From the IMG/VR virus record IMGVR_UViG_3300038427_000225, positions 1-40,855 of that record: 40,855 bases of DNA. One strand, written 5' to 3'. The notes under the pieces are model-generated. The model was not told the DNA's origin and made no database searches. It was given only the letters and a program-made list of their open reading frames with translations. Origin of the DNA: a virus. This document shows, one piece after another, positions 2,122 through 38,100 of the stretch (its first letter is position 1; each line of letters begins with the position of its first letter). Both the position numbers and the translations under genes were made by a program.

Positions 2122-2766
2122 TCACTTGACCACCAATATCTGCCCAAACTCTCGTACTTTTTCAAACTCCCGGTCGAAGTCGCCGAGAAACGCATCGATC
2201 ACGTCGCGCAGCTTCTCTTGAATCGCTTCGTCTCGCTCCACCTTGACGATCAACTTCGGCATGTTTTGCGAGTATGACACGAACCACCAGCACGGCCGGC
2301 CAGTGACCAGCATCGACATATGGACTTGGCCAAGGTATTGCTTTGGAACCGCCTGACCAAGCAGATAGCGGACTTGGTAGTGCGGCTGAGGGCACTTGGT
2401 CTCAAGGCCGGCATCGTCGCCCACAAGCCCATCCGGTGAGCAGCCAATGCGGCCATCGTCGGACAGACAGAAGCCGACCCGCTCGACCTTCAAGTCGGTC
2501 TCAAACTCGAACCAGGGAATGGCCGTGTTTTCGAGAATCTTGCCTTGATCCGCCGCCCAGGAGGGCGTGGTGTTGACATCCTCGTCCTCAGTGTCGGGCG
2601 CCATCAGCTTTTCGGCGATCTTGTTGTAAAGGTAGGTTTTCACGCCCTCGCCGGTCCTCGGCTTCCATTCGGGAGTAATGAGGGCATCAATCTCAGACGC
2701 CGTTACAACGCCGCGGCGAATGCTTTCCCATTCCTTGCTGCCCTGGGGCATGTTGAAGGTTTTCAT
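2122..2766 (-). CDS. YqaJ-type viral recombinase exonuclease
   Basis: A 214-residue protein of the lambda-exonuclease/YqaJ family (PD-(D/E)XK nuclease fold), close to the usual length. Conserved elements include the N-terminal QGSKEW with R-x-G-V-V-T-A-S (residues 8-24), E79 in the helix GKILENTA, the metal site SPDG (Asp111 region), ETK (Glu122, Lys124) and GQVHMSM (Gln147). Such enzymes resect double-stranded DNA 5' to 3' to leave single strands for an annealing protein. The ATG overlaps the stop of the ERF gene (ATGA), so the two are translated together as a recombination pair used in replication, repair and concatemer formation. Confidence 0.9.
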   Translation of the reverse strand: MKTFNMPQGSKEWESIRRGVVTASEIDALITPEWKPRTGEGVKTYLYNKIAEKLMAPDTEDEDVNTTPSWAADQGKILENTAIPWFEFETDLKVERVGFCLSDDGRIGCSPDGLVGDDAGLETKCPQPHYQVRYLLGQAVPKQYLGQVHMSMLVTGRPCWWFVSYSQNMPKLIVKVERDEAIQEKLRDVIDAFLGDFDREFEKVREFGQILVVK

Positions 2767-3506
2767 TGTTTTGTCCCCATCTTTCTCTTGAGCATGGCGA
2801 AAAGCTCGTCATACCGCTTCGATCCGATCCCCTCATAGGTCGTTGAACCGGCATACCGTAGAAACGCCATTTCGTCGGCGCGGGCATCGTGAACCATTTG
2901 CATCAGGGTTTCGGCCTGCACTTGCGTGATCGGCGTACCCTCCTGCCGGGCATCGGTATCGTGCTCGACTGTGATATTGAGGGCGTTGCACAGGGCATAC
3001 CGCTTGGCGTAGGTCATCGCGGCGCCGTCGGCCTGAGACTCGGTACAACCCGGCGGCCCGCTGCCGATCCGCACGAACGCCGTGTAGTCCCGATGATAGC
3101 CCGCCTGATGCTGCAAAGTGCAGGTCTGAACAATGCGAGAATCCTTGATCTCGGTCGAAAAGCTGACCGAGAACCCAAACCGCTGTAAAAGCGGCTTGAC
3201 TACCACCATGATCTCCTCGTAGGGGAGATACATGTACCGGGTGTGTCCATTCCGATCAGGCACTGCCTTCGTAGCCTGGAAAGAACCAAGCTCTGATTGC
3301 AACAAGGAAAACGCCTCCGCGAAATCCTTTTCGGCCTGCCGATCTTCCATGTGCTCCCGGAGAGCGACAAGCTCCTTGGCAACGGCCACGGATTCGGTGG
3401 TGAGCTTCCCCGAATCGAGCATCTTCGCTATGAGGGCAAGGGGCGTGGGGTCAACTGGTTGAAGTCCCGTTTCCGGCGGGACAACTAGGCTGTTTTCATC
3501 ACGCAT
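2763..3506 (-). CDS. erf: ERF-family single-strand DNA annealing protein
   Basis: A 247-residue protein. The diagnostic ERF segment AMTYAKRYALCNAL is at residues 163-176, and the upstream YMYLPYEEI (91-99) is also typical. ERF proteins form rings and pair complementary single strands. Here the protein would act with the exonuclease encoded next to it. The start ATG has an excellent site (GAGGAGGAA) and overlaps the end of the preceding small gene. The C-terminal part (about 190-247) is less conserved and ends in a basic tail. Confidence 0.92.
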   Translation of the reverse strand: MRDENSLVVPPETGLQPVDPTPLALIAKMLDSGKLTTESVAVAKELVALREHMEDRQAEKDFAEAFSLLQSELGSFQATKAVPDRNGHTRYMYLPYEEIMVVVKPLLQRFGFSVSFSTEIKDSRIVQTCTLQHQAGYHRDYTAFVRIGSGPPGCTESQADGAAMTYAKRYALCNALNITVEHDTDARQEGTPITQVQAETLMQMVHDARADEMAFLRYAGSTTYEGIGSKRYDELFAMLKRKMGTKQ

Positions 3507-6060: not shown

Positions 6061-6102
6061 CAGAAGAAAACCAGCAACCCGCCAAAATTGACGGGCTGCT
6101 GG
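6061..6102 (-). terminator. Intrinsic terminator closing the late operon
   Basis: Minus-strand hairpin: CCAGCAgCCCG pairs with CGGGtTGCTGG (6092-6102 with 6071-6081), ten base pairs with one mismatch and a ten-base loop, followed by TTTTCTTCT. It lies ten bases after the stop of the agmatine-deiminase-like gene. Confidence 0.75.
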
Positions 6103-6112
6103 TGATTGTCCG

Positions 6113-7018
6113 CTATTCCATGTAGTTCATGGACGTGCAGTTTACTAAACCCCCCTCCATCGACAGGTCGGCACAATCGATTGGAACGCACTTGACGCCG
6201 GGGTAGTATTTGGCGATGCACTTCAAGGCCCAATCGTCTTGGCCGATGCCGAACACCGGCAACAGGATCAAATCCTTGACTTGCAGGAAGTTGACATAGT
6301 ACCCAAATCCGGGGTTAAAATCGTCGGCTTCGGGATACTTCGCCCGGAACTCTTCTTCGGTCATCGTGGGCCTGACGTTGTAGGCGTAGGCGAACGGAAC
6401 GCACTCGATTCCGTGGATGCCAAAGGCCAATTTCAGCCGCTCGGTGTACTCATCATAATCCGGGTCTTGCATGACGCTAGTGTCATTGATGCACACCGTT
6501 TCGTCGTCGATCCACTTGCAGATGCCGTCCGCGTGACCGAGGTCGTCGCCCGGCTCGACGGGAATCAACACGATTTCTGCCTCCAATAGCCCTTCCAGCT
6601 TTTGCAACAGACGCTTGGGCTGGTATTGCGGATTGTGCTTGAAGATGATTTCCGTGATGATCGCCTTGCCGTTACGGCGAGACACGTTGCCCACGTCCAG
6701 GATGATCGGCGAGACGGTCAGGCCGGGCAGGAAGTTCCAGCATTCATCCGGTACAACGAGTTGCGGGTAATCGTTGTAGGCCAACCCGCTCTTGACTGCC
6801 TCGGGGTCGCCGTAGCCCTTGTAGTTGAACTTGACGAAATTGTTCAAATCCACCTGGGTCGGCATGTAGTCTCGACACCAGACATTGCCGGTGCCCTCAA
6901 TTCGCTTCACGGTAATCCCATGATCGATCAGGGACTTCGCCATCGCCGATGAAACATCGGGATAACGGTCGAGAGCACGGGTAATGTAAACCACATTCGC
7001 AGCATCGTCTCGAAACAT
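6113..7018 (-). CDS. Agmatine deiminase / PAD_porph-like guanidine-modifying enzyme
   Basis: A 301-residue protein from the ATG at 7016-7018 (AAGGAG just upstream). The 12-residue longer frame has no ribosome site. Family marks of the agmatine deiminase/bacterial peptidylarginine deiminase fold are in order: WCRDYMP (47-53; Asp50), LDVGN (108-111, where the family has EGGN), GHADG (161-165; His162) and a C-terminal GGLVNC (289-294; Cys294, the nucleophile). Known enzymes turn agmatine into N-carbamoylputrescine or protein arginine into citrulline. At 301 residues it is shorter than typical agmatine deiminases (about 350). It is the last gene of the late operon, behind a decarboxylase-like and a DDAH-like gene. 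The substrate cannot be told from the sequence. Confidence 0.8.
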   Translation of the reverse strand: MFRDDAANVVYITRALDRYPDVSSAMAKSLIDHGITVKRIEGTGNVWCRDYMPTQVDLNNFVKFNYKGYGDPEAVKSGLAYNDYPQLVVPDECWNFLPGLTVSPIILDVGNVSRRNGKAIITEIIFKHNPQYQPKRLLQKLEGLLEAEIVLIPVEPGDDLGHADGICKWIDDETVCINDTSVMQDPDYDEYTERLKLAFGIHGIECVPFAYAYNVRPTMTEEEFRAKYPEADDFNPGFGYYVNFLQVKDLILLPVFGIGQDDWALKCIAKYYPGVKCVPIDCADLSMEGGLVNCTSMNYME

Positions 7019-7059
7019 AAAAAGCTCCTTAAAAAAGTAATGGGCAGAACGCAAGTATT

Positions 7060-7785
7060 TTATCCCCTGCGTTCGATGCGTACAAGAGAGTCCACCGCCG
7101 CCTCGACGTGCTCGGTGACTTTGCAGAGCGTCCGAAACTTGTACCGGCTGTCCAGGGGCAGCACCGCCACCACCATCGATCCCCAGATTATTTGTCCAAA
7201 TCGCTCGTTTTGGTTGAACATGGCGACCGGATCGGCCTCAATCGGAACGATGCAATTGATGTCGCTGTCGGCAATCTGCACCAGGTAGTAGGTGTATTGG
7301 AGCGCACCGCAAAAACAACGATTGACGACTCGGGAGTTGGACGCCATAAAGCCAAACGTACCCTTGCGGATCAAGCCGGAATCGAGCAGGCCCCGCTCAG
7401 CCCAAAGCATGGGACAATTCAAAGTCTGGATGGGGGGCAGTTGCCGTCGCCTAATCATCACTTCAGTAGGGCAGCGATTCCAGTGAACATCTGCGCAAGT
7501 CATAAAGATGCCGCACACCAAAGCTGGCTCATCAATCGCCATTGGGCCAAGAAGGCTGTTGACCGTGCAATGTATTCCCTTCACCTCGATCAAGTCGTTT
7601 TCTGGCGCAAATCGGCCTTGAAGGGTAACAACTCCGTCTGCCGGCGAGGCGAACAGGTCGCGGTTGGCCCACATCGCGCGGAGCGGGTTGCGAAAGAAGT
7701 ATTCATGGTCGGCGCGCGATTGCTCCATTTTGAGAAAGTTCTTCACTTCCGGGCTAGCAAGCCATTCTGCGAGGGGCATGGGCAT
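7060..7785 (-). CDS. Phosphatidylserine decarboxylase-like pyruvoyl-dependent decarboxylase
   Basis: A 241-residue protein. Elements of the PSD family occur in order: FFRNP (30-34), SPADG (47-51; Asp50), VKGIHCTVNSLLG (68-80), DVHWNRCP (99-106), NSRVVNR (150-156) and WGSM (201-204). The last matches the LGST self-cleavage motif, in which Ser203 would become the pyruvoyl group. Compared with E. coli PSD (D-Y-H-R-V-H-M-P), the first His is kept (His101) but the second, the cleavage base, is Arg104. The membrane-binding N-terminal region is minimal, so a soluble amino acid or small molecule may be the substrate rather than phosphatidylserine. It lies between two guanidine-modifying enzyme genes, which makes arginine or ornithine decarboxylation a reasonable but unproved idea. 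Confidence 0.7.
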   Translation of the reverse strand: MPMPLAEWLASPEVKNFLKMEQSRADHEYFFRNPLRAMWANRDLFASPADGVVTLQGRFAPENDLIEVKGIHCTVNSLLGPMAIDEPALVCGIFMTCADVHWNRCPTEVMIRRRQLPPIQTLNCPMLWAERGLLDSGLIRKGTFGFMASNSRVVNRCFCGALQYTYYLVQIADSDINCIVPIEADPVAMFNQNERFGQIIWGSMVVAVLPLDSRYKFRTLCKVTEHVEAAVDSLVRIERRG

Positions 7786-7794
7786 GATGACGAC

Positions 7795-8799
7795 TCAAGT
7801 AATGGGTTGGGCGTATGCCTGGCGATTGATGTGGAAAACGCAACACGAAAGGTCGGCACCCGACTTGCTCATCTCGCTTAGGTCGGGCATGACAAGTTCA
7901 AATCGATTAGCTTCACAAACGTCTTCCCAGAATTTCCGCTTCTCGAATTGTTCCTTCCACTCCTCCTCGTCGTCGCTCCGCTTCATCGACTCCAAGGAAC
8001 TGCCGCACAAGACCATCTTCACTGTACGGACGCAGTTGGTTGTGCCAGCAAAGGCGATCTTCTTCGGCACGGGAATGATCTCGGCAATCTTCTCAATCGC
8101 CTTGATCTCCTCCGGCTTCAAGAGCGACGTGGCGACGACAACCTTCTCGGTCGTCAAGGGGAAGATTTCGGTATCGAGATGATAGTTGCGTTCATCGGTC
8201 ATTTCGACAGGAATCACCGTCATGTCGTAGGTCTTCTCGAACCATTCCAGTGCCTTCCGTTCGGTGCGGATGCCATAGGCACCAATGTAGTGGTTGTCGA
8301 CGACGTGTTTTAGGTCGGCCTCGCCCTCGAAATAAAAGGGACACTTCTTCGTCGTGTACTCATAGGCCGCGAAGTAATCCATCGCCGCCTTTTCCTCGCC
8401 GCCGCGGGGGGCACTCTTGAAATTGGAACCCACGAAGACCGGCTTTTTTCCGTGGCAGAGCATGATGCCGATGTTGGCAATGTACACGGCGTCGGCAAAA
8501 TACTCGATGGACGGCAGGATATGGACAAGGCTGTTGTTCCCGGACAGCCAACCGTAAAGCCGCATCCACTGTTGATAGCACTTGGCCCAATCCTCGTCGA
8601 TCTCTTCCTTGCTCATCCCCTTCATCCAGTAATTGTTTGGGCTGTCCGTGTTCCACTCGTGCGGGAAGATCATGGCATAGACGGGGAAGTCAAGGCATGA
8701 GGGATTCCAAATTTGCACGTTCGGGTCGGGCTTCTTGTCCGGCTTGGACTCGCCCTGTTTCGGCCTGATGGGTTTCTTTTCGGTCAGTGTGTCGGCCAT
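7795..8799 (-). CDS. DDAH / amidinotransferase-like guanidine-modifying enzyme
   Basis: A 334-residue protein with AAAGGA before ATG 8797-8799, overlapping the end of the giant virion gene. The first 28 residues are Lys/Pro rich and disordered. The rest fits the dimethylargininase/arginine deiminase/amidinotransferase fold: a region ADAVYIANIG (103-111), FEGEAD (157-162), GIRTE (176-180), YHLDT (206-210; His207), FAGTTNCV (250-257) and KSGADLSC (312-319; Cys319, the likely nucleophile, as in the DDAH LSC motif). Family members hydrolyse arginine or methylated arginine, or transfer the amidino group. The phage substrate is unknown. Co-transcription with the decarboxylase-like and agmatine-deiminase-like genes suggests one arginine or polyamine pathway, or modification of virion arginines. 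Confidence 0.78.
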   Translation of the reverse strand: MADTLTEKKPIRPKQGESKPDKKPDPNVQIWNPSCLDFPVYAMIFPHEWNTDSPNNYWMKGMSKEEIDEDWAKCYQQWMRLYGWLSGNNSLVHILPSIEYFADAVYIANIGIMLCHGKKPVFVGSNFKSAPRGGEEKAAMDYFAAYEYTTKKCPFYFEGEADLKHVVDNHYIGAYGIRTERKALEWFEKTYDMTVIPVEMTDERNYHLDTEIFPLTTEKVVVATSLLKPEEIKAIEKIAEIIPVPKKIAFAGTTNCVRTVKMVLCGSSLESMKRSDDEEEWKEQFEKRKFWEDVCEANRFELVMPDLSEMSKSGADLSCCVFHINRQAYAQPIT

Positions 8800-11700
8800 T
8801 ATTGTTTTCCTTTGCGGAGTTTTTTGGGAACGATGAAATTAGAACCGGCAGCGGATTTGGACAGCTTAGGAAAGACCGGTTGATTAGGTTCCTTTGAGGG
8901 CAAAGTCTCTCGCAAAATTGGGATAGCACCCATCGTCGGACCCATAACGCCAGTCTCGTCGCGTTTTTCTGGGTCTTCCTCTTTGGCGAGAAAACTGATC
9001 CACGCCGGAATAAGCATCGTTTTAATAAGCCTACCTACCGCGTTTTCAGCAGTTTCCGGGTTTGTCAACTGAGAAAATGTCCGCGCTTCGGACGATATGG
9101 GAGTTTGGTCCATTACTCCCGCCATCGTTGCCACGACCGCGCCGAAGAAGCTATGTTTAGCCTCCTCGTCCCCGCCCACCTTCTTCGTTTCGTCCAAAAA
9201 CTTGTGAAGCGTGGCAAATAGGTGGCCGACACCCAATTCAGGCGAATGCGTCAAATGGTGCGAAATCGTCACATCTCCAATTTGTATTTCTCCTGGAGCC
9301 AGTTTACCTTCATTTTCATCTTTTTTGCTTGCTGCTCGCCCACGATAGAACCCACCGAATTTGTCATGCCCATACCATCCCAAAAGTGCCCAGACCGGCA
9401 ATGACGAAAGACCGTAAACCATTTTGCGGGCTATAGCCTCTTTGGCTTCTGGAGATAGTTTTGCTAAGTCTTTGAGAATAAACGAATGCAGCGCGAATTT
9501 CCCCGTTCCTTCCACGCCGCCGACCGTTCGTTCGATCAACTCCGCCGCCCAGTTCATGCCCACTCTCACCACGGGCAGAATTCCCCTTCCGAAAACCTCC
9601 TTGACGACACCCGCCGCCGTCTTGTGCCCTGTTTTTGGATCGATCTTGGCGGAAGCCAAGCTTCGCAAGGCACTCGCCCCCTCGCTCTTCTGCATTAGAA
9701 TTTGCCGATTTGCCCATTCCAAGGCCGCCTGATTGATCCGCTTTTGCACTTCGGGATTATTGATGTCCTCGCCATGCTCTTTGGCGTCGGCCATAAGTTT
9801 GGCTTTTGCTAGAGTTTCCGCCGGCGTCCTGACAATTTCCTTGCCGGCGGCATGAGATCGACCGGGCATCTCCACAATCGCCCCAGCCACTCGCAATGCC
9901 TTCTTAACGCCCGTACTGGCATCGTTGGAGGGAATTGTCCAAGATTGCGGATCATGCCGTTCGCCGTACAGTTTTTGCGATTCGGTTCCATGATGCAAAA
10001 TTTGATCCATTGAATTTTTCGCGGTTGCCTTGATATTCAACAGCGCACGAAGATAGGCGGGAATGTCCGAACGTCCTTCCATCGGACTCAATTCTTTAAA
10101 TCCTGGCACAACTTTAGACAGCACCTTCCGAGATATTTCGTCTTTAAGAATGCCCGGAATCTTCCATGCAACCGCTCCGGCGATATGCACTACCACCGTA
10201 GGCGAACCGAGGACATTCGATTGGATCAAAGAGGTTGCCAGCGATCCAAGTTTCTCGATTCGGTTTTCGTGACTCGCACGAATGTTCGCTTCCAATTCCT
10301 TGAACTGCCCCCAGACTTTATCTACGGCACGGTTTCGGGATTCCGCTTCTTTGTCGAGCGTCAGCGGTCGGATCGGCTTTTTGACGGGAATCTCCCCCGT
10401 CTTTTCCATTTCCTTCAAGCGGGATTGCAGGTCGGCGTACTGCACCAGTTTCCGCTGCTTGTAATTCTCCAACCGCTCGGCATCGGTCAGGGGCCGTTTC
10501 GGCTTCTGCTTGCCAGCCCCGCCCTCTGTGTCCCATTCGGAAAGTTGACCGGCATCGAAAGCCTTGTCGCGGGCCTTGAGAGTTGCGTCAGAAGGAAATA
10601 TCTCTTGGTGCAGTTTGGTGACTTGGGCCAACTCTTCCTTGAGTGCCTCGATCTTCTTGGTGGTTTTCAGCGGCTTGCGATCCTTGACGATCTTCTCGCC
10701 CGTATCGATTTCTTTCTTGAGGTCGGCAATCCGGTTGAGAAGGTAGGTTTCGGCGGTTCCCTGGGCGGTTTTCAGTTGCCGGTCGGGGTCGGTGACTTCA
10801 TAGCCGCCTTCCTTCTTCTTTTCGTTGACCAGCTTCGTTAGCCGCCGCTCCTCTTCGGTTCCTTCGCGTTTTTCGACGCCCGATTTCAACGGAGCCTTTC
10901 CCGACTCCATATCCTGTAGCTTGGCGATCTGTTGCAATTCGCCCTTATGCCCCCGCATCTTGACGCTGATTTCATCCTTGGAAAGTTCGCGGTAATCGCC
11001 ATAGCCCGACATTGCATCCATCGTCTGCCGGCGAGTAATGTCGGGTACGTACTGCTTCAATTCATCGTGAACGGCATCCACGGCCTGTTCGCGGTCATCA
11101 ATGCCCAACTCGACCACTTCCCGATGAATATTCCGGGCCAGATTGCCAATGTCGCTATCGTCGGTAATCTCCACATCTCGCCCGGGAACGTCGCCCGATT
11201 CGCGGGACTTTTTCCACGCCTCAGCAAAGATGGGTCGCAATTCGTCGGCCTTCTCTCCCAGCCGTTCCTTCACATCCTTCATAAACTCCGTGAACGACTT
11301 GATGCCATACTCTGCCGCGGCCTTGATGACCTTGAGGCCCGCATTGATTGCCTCGACGGGAATGCCGCCGGATGTTGGGGCAGTTCCCTTGATCGTTTCC
11401 ACGAATTTCGTCTTGAACTCCGCCCACGCATCGTCAAGTTTCTTCTTTGATTCCGCCTTTTTGGCTCTTGGCTTTTCCGCTTTCGGCTCGGAAATGGATT
11501 CTTTGTCGCCTAAAGAGAACGATTCCTTGACTTCCCACGGGAATCCGCCATCTTCTCCGCCCGTAACTTCCGGCTCCCACGCATCGCCGCGAGTTTTCTT
11601 TGCCATCTCGTAAGCGACTTCGCCCAGCTTTTCATGCCACTGAGGGACTTTTTTGGGGCCAGCCTTGAGAAGATCAACAATCGCTTGTGGATCCGGCTCG

Positions 11701-14537
11701 ACTCCCAATACCGAATATTCTCGCGCCAGTATTCCAGCCTTTTCGTCCAACCCGTTGTATTCGAGTATATCGACCGGCTTTTCTGTGCGGTCTATGCCCG
11801 TTTGGTCTTTCACTTTCCAGGTTTTGTTCTCGATCTTAGAAATGACCGAAGGAGTTAGTCCCGTGTCTTTCTGCAACCCCTTGAATGCCCGATTGTACTC
11901 TTCTATCGGCCCCGCTTCATTCGCCGCTCGCTCCTTGGCACCGCTTTCCAATTCGTCGGGATCGAGACCGTGTTCTTTCGCCGTGCGCAGCAAATCGCGG
12001 GTTCGGGCGTTGATGGTCGCCTGACGCTTCACCGCTGCTTGCGAAACCAACTTGTCGTGGAGGACATCGAATTCCCGTTGCCGTTTCCCCTCTTCCGCCT
12101 GATCCTGTTTTTCCTGGTACGCCTTCAATTCATCCTGGGCGGCCTTCAAGTCGTCGGCCATCTTCTTGATTTCGATATTTTGCTCAACCGTGAGAGGAGC
12201 ACCGCCATTCGCCGACCGGACTTGACGGGTCAATCCTTCAAGCGATCCGTCCTTCTTAATCTCCATCTTGCGGGCAAGCATGGAGTATGATGCAGAAGTG
12301 CCCGACGAATTGTAGGCTTGAATCGCGTCGTCGGCTTGCTGGCGGATTCGATTAACATCGAGAGTAGCGGCATCGAGTGCGTCCGCATCGCCAGCATCGT
12401 GGGCGGCAATTTGCTTGTCCATCGCGACGGCGTAGCGATCCGCCATCTGCCGTTGATGAATCTGCAAAACCGATTGATCGACTTCGCTGATAGGTTTTTG
12501 GGGGGAGGCGTTCACGCGGGCAACCATATCGTACCCGGCCATCGGGTCGGCGGTCATCTTTTCCCCCGCTTGGTCCAGCCACTTTTGCATCGCGCCTTCC
12601 CCGACCTTATTGCTGGTAGCCGGAGTAAGTCCGTTTTTCTCCTGCCATTCCTTCATAACCCGGTTTTTTATCGACGTGATTTCTGGGGAAGATGCTGGGG
12701 GAGGCGTTACCGCTTCTTCTTGGACTTCCGGGTCGGCAGCCCCCCTTCCTTCGTTTTGGCGAACTCGTAAAGCTGCTTGTTCGACATCTGCTTTAGCCCC
12801 TGGTTCTTCTTTGACAGTTTGCTCGGTTGATGTAGGGCTATCGCCATCGCCCGGCGTTGAGCTTTCGATTTCGCTGGCATTTTCTTCTCCTTGGGTTGGG
12901 GGTTGGGATTTTCCTTGAGCGTACTCCGCGCTCAGATCGGCCTCGGTTTGCTTGCGGATTTCTGCGAATGTCGGGGGCGGCCCGCTTTTGGCAGCTTCAA
13001 CCGCCGCATTGCGATATTCGATGGAGGTCTTACCTAAACCGGTCGCCCGCTTGAATTCTGCCCGCGATGGACTATCGGGAAGGTTCGCTAGGTCTGCCAC
13101 CATGCCGGGGGCGTGAAACAGCGCGGCCTGGAAAACCGTCTCGGGGAGACTGTCGATCGTTTCGTTCCATAAGTCGGCCACGGACTTTCCTTTTCCGCCG
13201 CTGAGTCGAACCGCCCCTTCTTCGGCCAGTTTGGCTTGCAGCCCGGCGGCAGTCATAATCCGCCCAGTCTTTGCGGTTTCAAGGGCATATTTCAACAATG
13301 CCTCTTTGCCGGTCTCCGCGGCCCATTCGCCACCGCCAAATTGGCTCATAACCCGTCCGGGGACTTTCGAGAACAAGACCGTTTCGACGGCACCGGCAGC
13401 CACGCCAGCAGTTGCGGCAGCGAGGGGGCTTGCACCACGTTTCGAGGCCGCTTGCTCGACGCTGACCGCCGTGGGACCGCCGAACATCAAGGCAACGCCG
13501 GGAGCGCCGCCCGCCAGAGCAGCCGCGCCCATCGTGGGCAGCATCGCCATCGCCCCTTGGACGTTTCGGCTCACAAACCCCTGGTCGGGATGTGTCCACC
13601 GGGCGGGGTCGGTAGCGGCCCCGACGATTTGATTCTCAAACTCCCATTGATCTTTGCTTTTCAGCGGATTGAGTCGATCGACAGCCTGACCGGCCTTGAT
13701 AACTCCCGAAAGTCCAGCCCCAATCGTGCGCGATACCCATCCCGGTTGATTTTGCTTGTCTTGGGCTTTTGTGCTGTACTGTACGGCAGAGAGAACGTGT
13801 GGCCTCAATTCAACCGGCGTCTTTGTCCCCACGTCCTCTTCGTGCATTAGATCGAAGGAGTCCAAGGTGGGTTTTAGGGATTTGGCGAATTCGGGATTGG
13901 ATTCTATGCCGAGTTGCTTTGCAACGGTTGCGGCATAATCCTGATAGTCGGATTCGGATCGTTTGCCGTATTTTCCCGCTTCTCCACGCTTATCCGCCTC
14001 CGAATAAATCGCTTCCATCGCGTCTTGGTCGGTTGGCAACTGCTTTGATCCCGGCGGCATGGCAGAGGCGGTCATCGACGGAAGAATCTTTCGCCGTTCG
14101 TCGAGAGACTCTGGGGACTCTTGCGACTTGTTCCGGTAGGCTGCGCCGCGATCGGCACGGGGAAGAGGTTGCGGCGGCGGTTCTGCTGAAAGCCATCCGG
14201 GCAAAGATTCCGATTGCGAAGGTAAAATCAATTCGGAATCGGGTTCTTTCTCCTTGAAATACTGCTCCAACTCTTCTGGTGAATGTTGGCTAAGAACAAA
14301 ATCGGAAGGCGTATATGACCACTTGCCTTTTTCTTTTTCCTTCCAGACACCGCCAGGCGTTTTATCGTCAGAATACTTACTGTCCGTGCTGAATGTGATA
14401 TGATTCGGGCGTTTGTAGGTGTCGGGATAATGCCCACGTTCATCCGGCTTGATGCCCGCCGCCTTCGCGCCTTCCATGTCGTAATCCGCGGGTGGTGTTG
14501 CCGAAAGCCATTCAGGAAGTGCTGTTTCTGTACTCAT
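8799..14537 (-). CDS. Giant internal virion / DNA-ejection protein (1,912 residues)
   Basis: Start at ATG 14535-14537, coupled to the upstream gene as TAATG. The N-terminus has two copies of an LPxWLSAxPP motif (7-16 and 112-121) on either side of a conserved phage virion domain with GIKPDERGHYPDTYK and PNHITFS (28-50). A hydrophobic Gly/Ala segment lies at roughly 325-395, followed by very long charged coiled-coil stretches in the middle (about 500-1330). A segment about residues 1070-1130 (VEAINAGLKVIKAAAEYG) resembles regions of large polyvalent phage proteins. The C-terminal part has Trp-rich hydrophobic segments (LSSLPVWALLGWYGHDKFGG) that could insert in a membrane. In podoviruses such proteins form the inner core and are ejected to carry DNA across the envelope. 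No lytic transglycosylase motif was seen. Confidence 0.75.
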   Translation of the reverse strand: MSTETALPEWLSATPPADYDMEGAKAAGIKPDERGHYPDTYKRPNHITFSTDSKYSDDKTPGGVWKEKEKGKWSYTPSDFVLSQHSPEELEQYFKEKEPDSELILPSQSESLPGWLSAEPPPQPLPRADRGAAYRNKSQESPESLDERRKILPSMTASAMPPGSKQLPTDQDAMEAIYSEADKRGEAGKYGKRSESDYQDYAATVAKQLGIESNPEFAKSLKPTLDSFDLMHEEDVGTKTPVELRPHVLSAVQYSTKAQDKQNQPGWVSRTIGAGLSGVIKAGQAVDRLNPLKSKDQWEFENQIVGAATDPARWTHPDQGFVSRNVQGAMAMLPTMGAAALAGGAPGVALMFGGPTAVSVEQAASKRGASPLAAATAGVAAGAVETVLFSKVPGRVMSQFGGGEWAAETGKEALLKYALETAKTGRIMTAAGLQAKLAEEGAVRLSGGKGKSVADLWNETIDSLPETVFQAALFHAPGMVADLANLPDSPSRAEFKRATGLGKTSIEYRNAAVEAAKSGPPPTFAEIRKQTEADLSAEYAQGKSQPPTQGEENASEIESSTPGDGDSPTSTEQTVKEEPGAKADVEQAALRVRQNEGRGAADPEVQEEAVTPPPASSPEITSIKNRVMKEWQEKNGLTPATSNKVGEGAMQKWLDQAGEKMTADPMAGYDMVARVNASPQKPISEVDQSVLQIHQRQMADRYAVAMDKQIAAHDAGDADALDAATLDVNRIRQQADDAIQAYNSSGTSASYSMLARKMEIKKDGSLEGLTRQVRSANGGAPLTVEQNIEIKKMADDLKAAQDELKAYQEKQDQAEEGKRQREFDVLHDKLVSQAAVKRQATINARTRDLLRTAKEHGLDPDELESGAKERAANEAGPIEEYNRAFKGLQKDTGLTPSVISKIENKTWKVKDQTGIDRTEKPVDILEYNGLDEKAGILAREYSVLGVEPDPQAIVDLLKAGPKKVPQWHEKLGEVAYEMAKKTRGDAWEPEVTGGEDGGFPWEVKESFSLGDKESISEPKAEKPRAKKAESKKKLDDAWAEFKTKFVETIKGTAPTSGGIPVEAINAGLKVIKAAAEYGIKSFTEFMKDVKERLGEKADELRPIFAEAWKKSRESGDVPGRDVEITDDSDIGNLARNIHREVVELGIDDREQAVDAVHDELKQYVPDITRRQTMDAMSGYGDYRELSKDEISVKMRGHKGELQQIAKLQDMESGKAPLKSGVEKREGTEEERRLTKLVNEKKKEGGYEVTDPDRQLKTAQGTAETYLLNRIADLKKEIDTGEKIVKDRKPLKTTKKIEALKEELAQVTKLHQEIFPSDATLKARDKAFDAGQLSEWDTEGGAGKQKPKRPLTDAERLENYKQRKLVQYADLQSRLKEMEKTGEIPVKKPIRPLTLDKEAESRNRAVDKVWGQFKELEANIRASHENRIEKLGSLATSLIQSNVLGSPTVVVHIAGAVAWKIPGILKDEISRKVLSKVVPGFKELSPMEGRSDIPAYLRALLNIKATAKNSMDQILHHGTESQKLYGERHDPQSWTIPSNDASTGVKKALRVAGAIVEMPGRSHAAGKEIVRTPAETLAKAKLMADAKEHGEDINNPEVQKRINQAALEWANRQILMQKSEGASALRSLASAKIDPKTGHKTAAGVVKEVFGRGILPVVRVGMNWAAELIERTVGGVEGTGKFALHSFILKDLAKLSPEAKEAIARKMVYGLSSLPVWALLGWYGHDKFGGFYRGRAASKKDENEGKLAPGEIQIGDVTISHHLTHSPELGVGHLFATLHKFLDETKKVGGDEEAKHSFFGAVVATMAGVMDQTPISSEARTFSQLTNPETAENAVGRLIKTMLIPAWISFLAKEEDPEKRDETGVMGPTMGAIPILRETLPSKEPNQPVFPKLSKSAAGSNFIVPKKLRKGKQ

Positions 14538-16027
14538 TAGGGAACCCACGCTGGACGGCCTTGATAGATAACTTTCGTACCGGACTTTAAGCCTAGCCGC
14601 TTTATGTCCTCTGGACTATTCACCACTGGCGGTTGCCTTTGTCCTTGCGGCTGCTGACCGCCCTGACCACCTTGTGGTTGCTGTTGCTGTCCCTGCCCTT
14701 GTTCCGGTTGCGGTTGTGGACCAAATCCCGATCGCTGTTCTACTTCCGCCCTAACTTTAACCCTCAACTGTCTTTCGAGGTCGTCAAAGTACGCTTTCGG
14801 TTGGTTTGGATAAGCATCCTGCACTTCCTTTAATTGTTTCTTCACCTGAGTATCGACATACAGATCCTCATCGGCCAACTGTTGGGCAGTTCTGGTCTTC
14901 GGCTTGGCTTTCTGCACCGCGTCTGCCGCCTTTTGTTTTGCATCGATAAAAACCTTTAACGCCTGGACGCCTACCCTGCTAAGAGTGGACTGGCCAAGTT
15001 TATCAATATCGAAGGCCGCCATGCCAAGCTGTTGCAAGGGGGAATCGGGCGGAAGGGCTTGCAGGGCTTTCTGTTTTATGGCTCCAATCGATGCCGCCCG
15101 TTTGGGTACGCTAACTTCTCTGGCTGCCTGAAAAACAGCTTCTTCTCGTTCTTCGGCATTTTGTTGGCGAAATTTATCGGCTGTTTTTTGGTCTATCTGA
15201 TGGGCTGCTAATCCCTTTTCGATTAGCCCTCGCTTTCTGTCTAATTCTGGTATTATGCCATGCCCCTGCCCATCGTCCGCCCACGGGGCAAGCTCCCATG
15301 ATCCGTCCTGAAATCCCTTGGCAATCATCTCCTTCTTCTTGTTCTTTTCCTTGGCTTGAATCTCTTGGAGTTGCATTGCCGTTTTGTGATCGGCCAGTTC
15401 CATATCGTCTTTGTGCCGCTGCTGGTATTCGTGCCTCGCCTCCCACGCATCGGCGATAAACTTCGTCACCACCGCCTTTTGCTTTTGCAAATCTTCCCAC
15501 TGTATTTTTTGGGCATCAAACCCTTGTGTCTGGCTAAGTTTATCCAAATCATACCCTTGCAACAGCGCGTCTCGCTTCTCTTGCTCGGTGTACCGCTCTT
15601 TCGCCTGCTGGGCCGTAAATTCCTGTTGCTTGCCGAGATACCGCGTGTCGATTCCTTCCCGGCGATAGTCGCCCTGTTCTTGGAATCCAGCATTCAGCAA
15701 GGCCATTTCCCGCTGTTGAATGTCGGCCAGGTGTTGCTCAGCTATTTCGCCGTGCAAGTGCCGTTGATAGAGTTCGTCGTCATGTTGAAATCGGGCTTCG
15801 TCTCGGTTGGCCTCGATCCCACCCTGTTGCCCTTGCAGCATGGCGTTGTACCCGAACTGGTCTTGCGCCAAGTCCCGCTTGCCGCCGATTTCCATTTCCT
15901 GTTGTTGGAGAGAAAGATTGCGATTCTTCTGCGCCTCGGACAGACGATCGGCGCGCTCAAGCTGGACCTGGTTGTACTGCTGTTCTGCCGCAAGCTGTTC
16001 GTCCGAAATTCCGGGGAATAATGGCAT
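14537..16027 (-). CDS. Gln-rich coiled-coil internal virion protein
   Basis: A 496-residue protein with AAAGG upstream of ATG 16025-16027. About the first 250 residues are Gln/Glu/Arg-rich helices (ERADRLSEAQKNRN; QRHLHGEIAEQHLAD) expected to form long coiled coils. The C-terminal 100 residues hold a Gln/Gly/Pro low-complexity tract (QGQGQQQQPQGGQGGQQ) ending in a small basic domain (KSGTKVIYQGRPAWVP). Position and composition are like internal core or ejection proteins of podoviruses, which are encoded next to the giant one. The function is inferred from context only. Confidence 0.65.
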   Translation of the reverse strand: MPLFPGISDEQLAAEQQYNQVQLERADRLSEAQKNRNLSLQQQEMEIGGKRDLAQDQFGYNAMLQGQQGGIEANRDEARFQHDDELYQRHLHGEIAEQHLADIQQREMALLNAGFQEQGDYRREGIDTRYLGKQQEFTAQQAKERYTEQEKRDALLQGYDLDKLSQTQGFDAQKIQWEDLQKQKAVVTKFIADAWEARHEYQQRHKDDMELADHKTAMQLQEIQAKEKNKKKEMIAKGFQDGSWELAPWADDGQGHGIIPELDRKRGLIEKGLAAHQIDQKTADKFRQQNAEEREEAVFQAAREVSVPKRAASIGAIKQKALQALPPDSPLQQLGMAAFDIDKLGQSTLSRVGVQALKVFIDAKQKAADAVQKAKPKTRTAQQLADEDLYVDTQVKKQLKEVQDAYPNQPKAYFDDLERQLRVKVRAEVEQRSGFGPQPQPEQGQGQQQQPQGGQGGQQPQGQRQPPVVNSPEDIKRLGLKSGTKVIYQGRPAWVP

Positions 16028-34751: not shown

Positions 34752-35243
34752 TCAATGATTTGTAAGTGCAAGAACTCCAAAATAATGTTTTGCTGCTCTA
34801 TCATACGCCGCCGCCGCATTCTCTTCTGAGTCAAACCTTCCGAGGAAGTGATAATGCCCATCACATTTAAGACTCGCACTCCATTTCCCCCTAGAAGCAT
34901 CCCAGCAAACTCCTTTGTATTTTGATGGCTGTTCACCGTACTTTTTTCCGGTACGAACATGCTTCCTGTTTTTTGCTTGCTCTGAATAAGTAACCCAACG
35001 GCAGTTAGATGGGCAATAGCCTTTCGTGCGATCAATCCGATCAATTGTCAAATGCTCAGCATATCCATTTGACTGAGCCCACTTTACAAAAAGTTCTGGC
35101 GTATCTTTCCACTCGTCACAAACCGTGATTCCACTTCCAAAGTAATACTTGAATCTCGGGTAACGACAACGAGTATTCATTGCGTTCCAAATGCGAAAAA
35201 TCCTCGTGTATGAAAGACCGTGCTTGATTGGGCGTCCACGCAT
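34752..35243 (-). CDS. HNH endonuclease with C-terminal AP2 DNA-binding domain
   Basis: A 163-residue protein with AAAGGAG before ATG 35241-35243. The HNH part has H64 with IDRID (67-71), NCRW (80-83) and KNRK (91-94). Residues 108-156 form an AP2-like domain (KYKGVCWDASRGKW; FLGRFDSEENAAAAYDRAA). Such HNH-AP2 proteins are typical free-standing homing endonucleases of phages. It lies between the tRNA gene and the portal terminator. Confidence 0.92.
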   Translation of the reverse strand: MRGRPIKHGLSYTRIFRIWNAMNTRCRYPRFKYYFGSGITVCDEWKDTPELFVKWAQSNGYAEHLTIDRIDRTKGYCPSNCRWVTYSEQAKNRKHVRTGKKYGEQPSKYKGVCWDASRGKWSASLKCDGHYHFLGRFDSEENAAAAYDRAAKHYFGVLALTNH

Positions 35244-35334
35244 CGCCTACTCCTTTTTACAGGTCACCGTCGCGCCTGACCGGCCAGTCTGACGTGAAGT
35301 TGTGCCGAGTGAATTGTCAAAAATCAAAAGGTGC

Positions 35335-35370
35335 CCCCCTGTTCATGCTCCAAGGCAAGCGCTCAGGGGG
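35335..35370 (-). terminator. Imperfect hairpin downstream of the tRNA gene
   Basis: CCCCCTG (35364-35370 read on the minus strand) pairs with CAGGGGG (35335-35341), with a 22-base loop containing a partial inner pair. On the minus strand a T-rich tract (CCTTTTGATTTTTG) follows. It could terminate or process the tRNA transcript. The loop is long, so the call is weak. The rest of the gap between 35244 and 35407 shows nothing else. Confidence 0.3.
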
Positions 35371-35407
35371 ACGATTTCAACAGGTTTGAAATTTGTGGAC
35401 GTCTAAA

Positions 35408-35483
35408 TGGCGGAGACTGGATTCGGACCAGCGATCTCCGGGTTATGAGCCCAGCGGGGACAGCCTGACTCCCCTACTCCGCT
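35408..35483 (-). tRNA. tRNA-Met (CAU) with initiator-type features
   Basis: A complete cloverleaf can be drawn: acceptor pairs 2-71 to 7-66, D stem GGGG/CCCC with an 11-base loop containing GG, anticodon stem CTGGG/CCCGG, loop CTCATAA with anticodon CAT, variable AGATC, T stem GCTGG/CCAGT with loop TCCGAAT, discriminator A. Three marks point to an initiator: no Watson-Crick pair at 1-72 (A and C), three G-C pairs at 29-31/39-41, and a purine-pyrimidine pair at 11-24. Position 55 is C rather than T. No CCA is encoded. It lies seven bases after the upstream gene. Confidence 0.85.
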
Positions 35484-35845: not shown

Positions 35846-36172
35846 CTAATTCTCCTGTTTCCGGGGCAGTCGCATGATGAGGCTTTGGGCTTGGAGGACA
35901 AGGTACTTCGTTCCTTCCAGCCACACGTTGAATCCGCCTCTGTGCATCGCGTAAGCCATGTCGCCCGCCCTTACGCCGTGGTCAACAATATTTCCATTCG
36001 AATCGGGGCAACCTGGTCCAACCGCCACGACACGGGCCAAAGGCGGCTCCGTATCCGTTTCGCCCAGGGTCTCTGGCAAGTGAATGCCACCCTTCGTCTG
36101 CCCAGACGGCAGCACTTCCAACAAGCACCAATCCCACAACATCTGCACTTCCGGGTCGTTTTTTGCAACCAT
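35846..36172 (-). CDS. GroES/Cpn10-like co-chaperonin
   Basis: A 108-residue protein starting at ATG 36170-36172, coupled to the terminase stop as TAATG. GroES signatures: core WCLLEVLPSGQTKGGIHLP (15-33) with the mobile loop near residues 24-45, ARVVAVGPG (46-54), VRAGDMAYAM (67-76) and EGTKYLVLQAQSLIMRL (86-102). Phage co-chaperonins such as T4 gp31 replace host GroES so that large capsid proteins fold. No GroEL is encoded here, so it must work with host GroEL. The C-terminus and loop differ from bacterial GroES. Confidence 0.85.
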   Translation of the reverse strand: MVAKNDPEVQMLWDWCLLEVLPSGQTKGGIHLPETLGETDTEPPLARVVAVGPGCPDSNGNIVDHGVRAGDMAYAMHRGGFNVWLEGTKYLVLQAQSLIMRLPRKQEN

Positions 36173-38100
36173 TATCGTCCGTCCTCTCCGAAAATGTGTC
36201 CCACCACATCGTACTCCGCTTTTTTCGCCGCGTTTTGCTGTAGAATCCACGCTGGCGAGTACATTGGCGCATTTTGCACAGTTGGCGGAGTCTTGTCAAG
36301 CCCATTATTTGTGCGATCCCTGCGCAATAGGTCAGCAATCCCGGCAGCTATGCATCGATCGCCGTGTGCCCCAGAGTCGGCGCCACCCTTCGTTTTGCTG
36401 GGACTATGCACGATTCTCTTGGTTTTTGGGTCAATATCGTACTCGCCGCACTCCTCGACCATATCCTCATCGCGGGGGGTGAAACTTCCGCCCTTGAATC
36501 CCAGGCAAAGCTGCTCGAATAACCGCAATTTGTCGGCATCGCTCTTGTTAGCCCAGCCCGGTTTCTTCTCCCGCTCCCCTCCTATCGGGTTGGTTTGCCG
36601 ATAGTAGATGTAGTAATAGCCGATGGATGGGCCGAGGATTTCCTTCTGAACGATGGTTTCCCCCGGCCCTGTTGATTCCCAGCCCAGGTAGGCGTTGCGG
36701 AGCCAGCGGGCCGCCGCCACCATGACCTTGGCAAAATCGTGGACCCGCATCCCCTTCACGGCGTAGGCCAAGACCTGTTCGCCCTTGAAAATATCCACCC
36801 CGCAGAGGGTGCTGTTGCTGGAATTGTCGCCGGTTCCCCCCATCGAAATGTCCGATCCGATGGCGTAATGGCCCACCGGCACGTCCAGTTTGTCGGGATC
36901 GAACCACAGCTTGAGGGATCCGCCAGAGCGTTTCACCAGTCCCTTGACCACGCTTTCCTCTTCGTCCACGATGAAATCGCCCTGCCACACGGGCGGCCGG
37001 CAGCATTCCCGCTTCATCCGATCCAACAGTTCCGGCTCGAAAACCTTGCCGACGGCACCCTTGGCATCGCGGTAGATTTCCCGCGCGATGGATTGCGGCG
37101 TCGAAGTGGTTTGCAGGCAGTGGCCAATGACCCACGGCGAAGTCGGTCGGCCCTCTTTGATGAACTCTTCTCGGATCAGTCGGTTGATGGTTTCTTTCCG
37201 GCGGTTGACATACTCCTCGACGGCCGGTTGGTCACTGGAATTCAAGGCGACCGGTGAACCATTCCGCATGGTGAACGCCAAGCGGCTGTGCATCGGGTTG
37301 TTCATCCAGTCCAGCACCACAACCTTCGTCTGGGGATCGGGCGACTTGCGGGCCTTTTGCAAGGCGTTGTAGAACATGCCCGCATCCTGGGACATCGTGG
37401 AGATATAAACCCGGCAGTCGGTGACGTGGCTGGTGGACGCCGCGGCCTGTTCGTCCTTGCCGCTGGTGATCCACTCCGACGAGCCGATTTCATCGTTGAC
37501 CACGCACGTCATCCGTTCGCCGCGGAAAAGGTTTTCAACCGCCGCCGACCCAACGACCGTCGAGCGAATGTCGTGGTTGGTGAAGACGTGCTCTGTGACG
37601 TTCCGCGTCCACTTCTTCGGTCTCAACCAGTACGGCAACTGCTCGATCATGTAGTTGAACTTGTAGAGCACCGCCCCTTCCCGGTCCCGAGAGTCAACTT
37701 GATCCTCGTTGCGGGCCACCACGCCGCCCATGAAGCCCGGCTCGAACAGCCAGAAATAGACGTAGGCCGCCACGTAGCCGTAGGTTCCACCCTGTTCACG
37801 GGCCTTGTCCACCAGCAAGTCGAACAATTCCCGCGTGCGGATCGCCTGCCGGATGCCATCGACAATTTCAATGATGAGGTTTGCTTGGTCCGGCCAACAG
37901 ATAAGCGGGTTCCTCTTGAGCGCGCTGCGCGGTTCCCAACACCACAAAAAGCCGTTTGCCAGAAAGAGCGGGTCTTCCTCACACGCCTTGCGAAGTGCCC
38001 GCTGAGCATGGGGCAACATCGCGGCCCCGCGTTCCACGTTGGCCCGCCAGACCATGTTTTCCTTCCAATCGGCGGTGGGGACGTGGCCGAGAAAGCTCAT
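36172..38100 (-). CDS. terL: Terminase large subunit (ATPase and nuclease)
   Basis: A 642-residue protein. The ATG overlaps the upstream stop (ATGA), with GAGG upstream. ATPase marks: DKAREQGGT (98-106, Walker A-like), MTCVVNDEIG (197-206, Walker B with Asp203 and catalytic Glu204) and a coupling motif RVYISTMSQ (230-238). The nuclease domain begins at about 405 with YAIGSDISMGGTGD (Asp417), followed by typical acidic positions. The enzyme cuts concatemers and pumps DNA into the prohead through the portal. It is followed directly by the co-chaperonin gene rather than the portal. Confidence 0.88.
   Translation of the reverse strand: MSFLGHVPTADWKENMVWRANVERGAAMLPHAQRALRKACEEDPLFLANGFLWCWEPRSALKRNPLICWPDQANLIIEIVDGIRQAIRTRELFDLLVDKAREQGGTYGYVAAYVYFWLFEPGFMGGVVARNEDQVDSRDREGAVLYKFNYMIEQLPYWLRPKKWTRNVTEHVFTNHDIRSTVVGSAAVENLFRGERMTCVVNDEIGSSEWITSGKDEQAAASTSHVTDCRVYISTMSQDAGMFYNALQKARKSPDPQTKVVVLDWMNNPMHSRLAFTMRNGSPVALNSSDQPAVEEYVNRRKETINRLIREEFIKEGRPTSPWVIGHCLQTTSTPQSIAREIYRDAKGAVGKVFEPELLDRMKRECCRPPVWQGDFIVDEEESVVKGLVKRSGGSLKLWFDPDKLDVPVGHYAIGSDISMGGTGDNSSNSTLCGVDIFKGEQVLAYAVKGMRVHDFAKVMVAAARWLRNAYLGWESTGPGETIVQKEILGPSIGYYYIYYRQTNPIGGEREKKPGWANKSDADKLRLFEQLCLGFKGGSFTPRDEDMVEECGEYDIDPKTKRIVHSPSKTKGGADSGAHGDRCIAAGIADLLRRDRTNNGLDKTPPTVQNAPMYSPAWILQQNAAKKAEYDVVGHIFGEDGR

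Follow-up and report, generated by a model that had tools for sequence, protein, structure and literature searches.

A phage operon that couples an ArgZ-like enzyme to a phosphatidylserine decarboxylase-like protein: a candidate arginine-to-amine module

Which pathway could join two guanidine-modifying folds to a pyruvoyl decarboxylase-like protein in a late operon of a phage? The question is raised by the IMG/VR virus record IMGVR_UViG_3300038427_000225, whose positions 1 to 40,855 (40,855 nucleotides, hereafter the window) hold three consecutive minus-strand genes related to the arginine dihydrolase ArgZ and to DDAH, to phosphatidylserine decarboxylase (PSD), and to agmatine deiminase (AIH), respectively. 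An earlier note, made from the sequence alone, had proposed that the three enzymes act together, converting arginine through agmatine to N-carbamoylputrescine and so supplying a polyamine-type compound while DNA is packaged. Taken as a whole, this interpretation is partly supported by the analysis reported here. The recurring core of the cassette consists of the ArgZ-like and PSD-like genes, to which the AIH-like gene is an addition. Gene context provides good grounds for an arginine-to-amine reading, the chemistry of which is predicted; as a best guess, to which slightly less than an even chance is given, the phage-encoded module would convert arginine to ornithine and ornithine to putrescine late in infection.

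The first gene (7795..8799, minus strand; ATG start, 334 aa) was assigned through profile, structure and alignment matches. Its product matches the DDAH profile with an E-value of 6.6e-23 and the arginine dihydrolase profile with 7.8e-19, its NCBIfam scores of 81 and 68 bits falling below the respective equivalog cut-offs of 300 and 450, and it belongs to phrog_12759, a PHROG of unknown function. The top sequence matches in the PDB are solved ArgZ/AgrE structures. When the AlphaFold model of the protein (mean pLDDT 86.5) was compared with PDB folds, ranks 1-13 were all occupied by ArgZ/AgrE, with DDAH following; the best match was ArgZ 6jv0, with a TM by target of 0.87 compared with 0.72-0.80 for DDAH, and the fold family also includes amidinotransferases, for example the polyamine amidinotransferase HsvA. 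ArgZ residues N22, N71, R90, E118, H168, D170 and C264 correspond to N56, N109, R132, E158, H207, D209 and C319 of the window protein, the equivalence of C264 and C319 being one of C-terminal position, beyond the stretch that the printed sequence alignment covers. Across 28 phage and bacterial sequences, N109 is kept in 27 and the other six residues are invariant. We take Asn71 to have a functional role in ArgZ and Arg90 to contact the amino-acid carboxylate, and we map these presumed roles onto N109 and R132; PDB titles name the ArgZ mutants N71S and C264S. Because the Arg90 equivalent is invariant, the substrate of the first enzyme would be a free amino acid, which probably puts this enzyme ahead of the decarboxylase, and the ArgZ-specific residues point to hydrolysis in preference to amidino transfer.

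By these measures the first enzyme is nearer to ArgZ than to DDAH, so that the earlier designation as DDAH/amidinotransferase-like holds for the family and gives way at the level of the closest relative, given the retained Asn71 and Arg90 and the fold ranking. The likeness to cyanobacterial ArgZ/AgrE (Sll1336, Alr4995) comprises the best sequence and fold match and the retention of catalytic and substrate-contact residues. In contrast to those enzymes, the phage protein, about 22% identical to them in the structural alignment, has no ornithine cyclodeaminase domain and belongs to a separate subfamily; two cyanobacterial genomes hold a member of the module subfamily together with an ordinary ArgZ-like protein of ~700 aa.

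The second gene (7060..7785, minus strand; ATG start, 241 aa) was recognised by profile match and motifs. Its product matches PS_Dcarbxylase (PF02666) with an E-value of 3.2e-17 and 63.3 bits against a Pfam cut-off of 22, its best PSD equivalog score (45.8 bits) does not reach the cut-off of 183, and it too belongs to a PHROG of unknown function, phrog_12670. The motifs SPADG (D50), DVHxNRxP (D99, H101) and the GS cleavage site (G202-S203) are invariant in relatives, and WGSM is present in the window protein. Although SPADG, DVHxNR and GS are shared with the short phosphatidylserine and archaetidylserine decarboxylases of PF02666, the module proteins differ from these lipid enzymes in lacking a membrane helix, in lying under all equivalog cut-offs, in forming a clade of their own and in being linked to ArgZ-like genes. 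Within the first 60 residues, the best 19-residue hydrophobicity mean is at most 0.84 in 22 module PSDs, compared with 2.3-2.6 for the hydrophobic N-terminal segment of short-type housekeeping PSDs (n=2, from genomes carrying both kinds). The separate clade has support of 100/100, in a test with only two canonical PSD rows that more canonical sequences would strengthen. Five genomes (G004-G008) carry a separate, higher-scoring PSD besides the module copy that adjoins the ArgZ-like gene, and the Gaiellaceae genome G003 carries the module copy only. The module protein is accordingly best read as a putative soluble pyruvoyl amino-acid decarboxylase. Structure prediction, which the earlier note had recommended as a check, succeeded for the ArgZ-like protein with its matches to ArgZ/AgrE and then DDAH, and was less informative here: the PSD-like model (pLDDT 82.6) has E. 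coli PSD as its sole confident match, and its low TM of 0.38-0.46 is the reason that no geometry was taken from it. At one locus (L003:10991-11230) part of the beginning of the PSD-like gene is duplicated, and a frameshift at a T run follows; L002, from another metagenome, has the same shortened open reading frame, which may be either a real lesion of the lineage or a common assembly artefact.

The third gene (6113..7018, minus strand; ATG start, 301 aa) was assigned by profile match and catalytic residues. Its product matches PAD_porph (PF04371) with an E-value of 3.9e-22 and 79.3 bits against a Pfam cut-off of 25, and its agmatine deiminase (AguA) score is 34.9 bits, where the equivalog cut-off is 381.8. 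The residues W47, R49, D50, D108, H162, D164 and C294 were identified, of which D50, H162, D164 and C294 are invariant in the relatives aligned. The W-x-R-D and GHxDG motifs and the catalytic Cys are thus kept as in the agmatine deiminase/PAD_porph family, while the catalytic Glu of LEGGN is replaced by Asp (Asp108) in all phage members aligned, unlike the cyanobacterial ones, which have Glu. Since all three proteins lie far under the NCBIfam equivalog cut-offs, none should take the name of a characterised enzyme. The families proposed earlier nevertheless proved correct in profile searches (DDAH/ArgZ, PS_Dcarbxylase and PAD_porph), and the residues then named (His207 and Cys319; SPADG and WGSM; Asp50, His162 and Cys294) are present, the catalytic ones being invariant in relatives. 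Among cultured records, the AIH-like protein is matched most closely in MT836602.1 (L008), which was excluded as a phage trio because the match sits amid conjugative-element-like genes. Deposited as a bacteriophage, this record encodes a group II intron-like reverse transcriptase as well as conjugation-like genes, and its distant AIH-like domain stands behind another domain in a single open reading frame.

The distribution of these genes in phages identifies the core. Both core proteins match an identical set of 45 among 50,697 cultured phage records, comprising 39 Campylobacter and 6 Bacteroides phages; the pair, DAC19_243 and DAC19_244, is adjacent in the Bacteroides phage DAC19, and in the Campylobacter phage NCTC12673 the two genes, gp044 and gp085, lie ~43 kb apart. 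A genome scan with a single-protein query found no relatives, and single-protein searches of IMG/VR gave little, so alignment queries were needed. Each alignment search returned 221 IMG/VR loci, the best 80 of which were examined per scan, the two scans having contigs in common; on these matches, the cassette appears to occur in hundreds of phages. Among the loci listed, 101 of 103 distinct ArgZ-like sequences have a PSD-like gene in the locus, and of the three loci without one, two run up to a contig edge, the third being L039. Viewed from the PSD side, the ArgZ-like gene is present in 75 of the 76 loci listed, the remaining locus being cut by its contig. Counted over loci, the two genes overlap by one nucleotide in 128/154 pairs, a T4-type capsid-like gene lies upstream of the pair in 113/142 and a PhoH-like gene downstream in 123/140, the latter two names having been judged from sequence appearance without a profile search. 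The divergences of the two core genes are correlated (Mantel r 0.95 over 27 dereplicated loci), which indicates stable co-inheritance and not function, because linked genes have a common history. The pair is among the tighter gene pairs observed here in T4-like phages. In L039 (5628-6629), near the contig end, the place directly behind the ArgZ-like gene where the PSD-like gene usually starts is taken by a GIY-YIG-endonuclease-like gene, and the PSD gene of NCTC12673 shares an overlap with a gene annotated as a homing endonuclease.

The complete trio runs ArgZ-like, PSD-like, AIH-like in the window and in L001, L002/L003 and L214, and ArgZ-like, AIH-like, PSD-like in L108; L213, L215 and L018 hold it in part, at the edges of their contigs. 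The neighbourhood search, which had been set beforehand as a test capable of refuting the earlier proposal, thus recovered the trio in L001, L002/L003, L108 and L214, and a cyanobacterial arrangement described below parallels it. The suggestion that the genes act together gains support from the linkage of the pair and the recurrence of the trio; as for the trio being the unit, it does recur, but the ArgZ-like and PSD-like genes make up its conserved core, with PAD_porph not found in nine large T4-like contigs nor in NCTC12673. A PAD_porph gene of DAC19 was rejected as a trio member, being a distant relative located at 106.3 kb with the pair at 154 kb.

Bacterial copies provide further clues to the chemistry. 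Relatives sharing 35-41% identity were identified in Tolypothrix, Dulcicalothrix, Gaiellaceae, Gemmatimonadota, Acidobacteriota, Xenorhabdus, Verrucomicrobiota, Saprospiraceae and Rhodospirillaceae. They are rare, being present in 1/386, 2/396, 1/347, 2/338 and 3/247 genomes of five phylum samples, with the seed genome counted in each. Most bacterial ArgZ-like copies adjoin a PSD-like gene plus a MATE or ABC exporter. In Dulcicalothrix (L088), the order is ArgZ-like gene, Orn_Arg_deC_N/Orn_DAP_Arg_deC decarboxylase, AIH-like gene and ABC exporter genes, with polyketide/peptide-synthase-like genes in the neighbourhood; in Tolypothrix (L087), it is decarboxylase, ArgZ-like, AIH-like and ABC genes. 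The decarboxylase, dependent on pyridoxal 5'-phosphate (PLP), has an alanine-racemase fold, and its best PDB matches are lysine/ornithine and ornithine decarboxylases and the arginine decarboxylase of PBCV-1. One of two ornithine side-chain aspartates looks conserved in its alignment, an observation not used for substrate assignment. PSD-family genes were not found in the Dulcicalothrix or Tolypothrix genomes, and the PSD slot in these cyanobacteria is occupied by the unrelated PLP amino-acid decarboxylase. Of all the clues, this replacement points most strongly to a free amino acid as the substrate of the PSD-like protein. Two further bacterial loci stand apart. A Bacteroidota ArgZ-like copy (L188:7243-9048) has no adjoining PSD-like gene, its neighbour possibly being a different partner enzyme; and an ArgZ-like/PSD-like pair in a contig of a metagenome-assembled genome (L187/L189, G1265) has virus-like neighbours (dUTPase-like, sugar-nucleotide and muramidase-like genes), so that the contig may be viral and binned with a bacterium.

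A tentative pathway can be proposed on this basis, in which every substrate, product, timing and purpose is what we infer. The ArgZ-like enzyme would act on free arginine, performing two hydrolyses on one cysteine to yield ornithine, CO2 and ammonia. The PSD-like protein, predicted to cut itself between Gly202 and Ser203 to generate its pyruvoyl group, would then decarboxylate a free amino acid, most likely ornithine, giving putrescine. Where present, the AIH-like protein may act on agmatine or a similar compound from the same decarboxylase. The late-operon position would place synthesis during DNA packaging, the product possibly acting in late translation or as a counter-ion to the packaged DNA. 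The pair comes after the capsid gene in most T4-like loci, in keeping with such timing. The putrescine route is favoured over that through agmatine and N-carbamoylputrescine because the pair is universal and ArgZ Asn71 and Arg90 are kept. The earlier route therefore fits the pair less well, and 14 related records, fragments among them, and the scanned window proteins yielded no N-carbamoylputrescine amidohydrolase (CN_hydrolase).

Several observations weigh against putrescine as the product. The role of Asn71 in ArgZ is presumed, with backing here from PDB titles, and the support is computational, with the enzyme activities predicted. The AIH-like protein is hard to place if ornithine is the intermediate. 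The AdoMetDC family was not found in the 14 related phage records, and no further polyamine step was found there. The PLP enzyme of the cyanobacteria has a likeness to diaminopimelate decarboxylase as well, the family that ranked first in NCBIfam. In addition, the MATE exporter in seven bacterial loci and the ABC exporters in Xenorhabdus and the cyanobacteria are ill-suited to plain intracellular putrescine, so that of the idea that a polyamine is made for packaging, the arginine-to-amine part is kept while the exporters leave room for another product.

That other product could be a specialised, normally exported arginine-derived molecule such as a guanidino-amine or modified diamine, which bacteria would export with the MATE or ABC transporter next to the module and which phages, having taken the genes, would use or release late in infection. 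This is possible but doubtful. It agrees with the exporters adjoining the module in L087, L089-L097, L099 and L195, the scattered and rare distribution across the five phyla sampled, the polyketide/peptide-synthase-like genes near the Dulcicalothrix copy and the membership of amidinotransferases such as HsvA in the ArgZ-like fold family, but no exporter was seen near the phage copies in the loci read, no additional tailoring gene is common to all copies, and the ArgZ-specific residues would favour hydrolysis. Stated more broadly, a module common to phages and scattered bacteria, built from an ArgZ-fold enzyme and a repurposed soluble pyruvoyl decarboxylase interchangeable with a PLP enzyme, would make an arginine-derived amine other than an ordinary polyamine, exported by bacteria and made by phages beside capsid synthesis; this formulation is likewise judged rather unlikely. 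If instead the purpose were depletion of arginine, release of ammonia or removal of a host signal, the amine would be a by-product, and the module would shift host nitrogen or pH or block an arginine- or agmatine-dependent defence. An arginine dihydrolase frees two ammonia per arginine, and nitrogen release could benefit phages, but depletion alone needs no decarboxylase, which is nearly always retained with the ArgZ-like enzyme, and the cassette is in a late structural, not an early, position; this explanation is considered improbable.

Still less probable is modification of nucleic acid or virion proteins, whereby the amine or amino acid would be attached to DNA bases or virion proteins would be citrullinated. 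The DNA bases of phage phiW-14 carry ornithine or putrescine, and the structural context of the cassette is late. Fletchervirus carries the pair and has modified DNA, but the change reported for it is deoxyinosine and not an amine adduct (PMC8713573, citing Crippen 2019). Furthermore, Pfam and PHROGs scans of window proteins revealed no hypermodification gene, bacterial copies accompany exporters and not DNA genes, and R132, the match of the ArgZ arginine presumed to contact the free amino-acid carboxylate, is invariant. The slightest chance is given to the PSD-like gene being an ordinary phosphatidylserine decarboxylase that changes host membrane lipids, with its guanidino neighbours incidental. 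Membership of the PS_Dcarbxylase family with conserved motifs and cleavage site fits such a role, as does the annotation of the Campylobacter phage copies as phosphatidylserine decarboxylase; however, the missing membrane segment, the separate clade, scores far under all PSD equivalog cut-offs, the near-perfect ArgZ-like linkage in phages and bacteria, and the occupation of the slot by a PLP amino-acid decarboxylase in cyanobacteria all argue against it.

The putrescine route may also be compared with known systems. Li et al. (2023) characterised polyamine enzymes of viruses, including pyruvoyl decarboxylases of phages that act on ornithine or arginine and descend from AdoMetDC, and the PBCV-1 pathway consists of arginine decarboxylase, AIH and N-carbamoylputrescine amidohydrolase (PMC9992855); the main text of that paper makes no mention of phosphatidylserine decarboxylase or dihydrolase. 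The cassette resembles these pathways in its virus-encoded arginine-to-putrescine direction, pyruvoyl decarboxylase and AIH, whereas its decarboxylase fold and first enzyme are different and its genes form a linked operon beside virion genes. PBCV-1-type pathways also encode a CN_hydrolase, for which the cassette has no counterpart in the records and window proteins scanned. A precedent for the proposed decarboxylase is PsiD of Psilocybe, a PSD-family decarboxylase of free tryptophan; in Inocybe, which has a psilocybin route of its own, the decarboxylase is a PLP enzyme (PMC12603985). Both the action of a PSD-family enzyme on a free amino acid and the use of a PLP decarboxylase where a different lineage runs the pathway would be paralleled here, although PsiD is fungal and its substrate aromatic. 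No paper describing the phage ArgZ-like/PSD-like pair was found in the literature searched, with subscription journals mostly outside its coverage.

Within the window, the three minus-strand genes form one operon that ends at a strong terminator, and the three open reading frames, their spacing, the operon and the terminator are all as first reported. The ArgZ-like start lies in the stop codon (TAATG) of the preceding 1916-aa gene of the same operon (8799..14549, minus strand), within whose end a Shine-Dalgarno-like AAAGGA (8808..8813, minus strand) precedes that start. The spacing is 9 nt between the ArgZ-like and PSD-like genes and 41 nt between the PSD-like and AIH-like genes, with a Shine-Dalgarno AAGGAG, read from the sequence, ahead of the AIH-like start codon (7025..7030, minus strand). 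Directly past the AIH-like stop codon is the intrinsic terminator (6070..6103, minus strand), with a 15-pair stem and the T-rich tail TTTTCTT. The G+C content of the cassette genes is 0.54-0.56, and that of the window 0.543. The 1916-aa product is a putative internal virion protein; a Pfam scan of it matched no family, which leaves its earlier label as an ejection protein unconfirmed. Similar large genes lie directly ahead of the cassette in L001 and L108 and directly behind it in L214. The window also encodes a terminase (36172-38100), a DUF2341 protein and proteins with weak tail-fibre-like matches. Elsewhere, genes for an ERF-type annealing protein and a YqaJ-type nuclease stand side by side as a phage recombination pair (2122-3506, minus strand), and an HNH/AP2-domain endonuclease gene adjoins a tRNA-Met (35408-35483) within 34752-35483 on the minus strand.

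The two core genes have been annotated singly in Campylobacter phages and belong to PHROGs of unknown function. If the arginine-to-amine reading is true, another protein fold would have been recruited for basic amino-acid decarboxylation, and phages would possess a widespread arginine-to-amine route whose product is made beside the capsid gene. Since the pair is small, soluble and carried by cultured phages (Campylobacter NCTC12673 and Bacteroides DAC19), assays are within reach, and the phages' own supply of counter-ions for packaged DNA would become directly testable.

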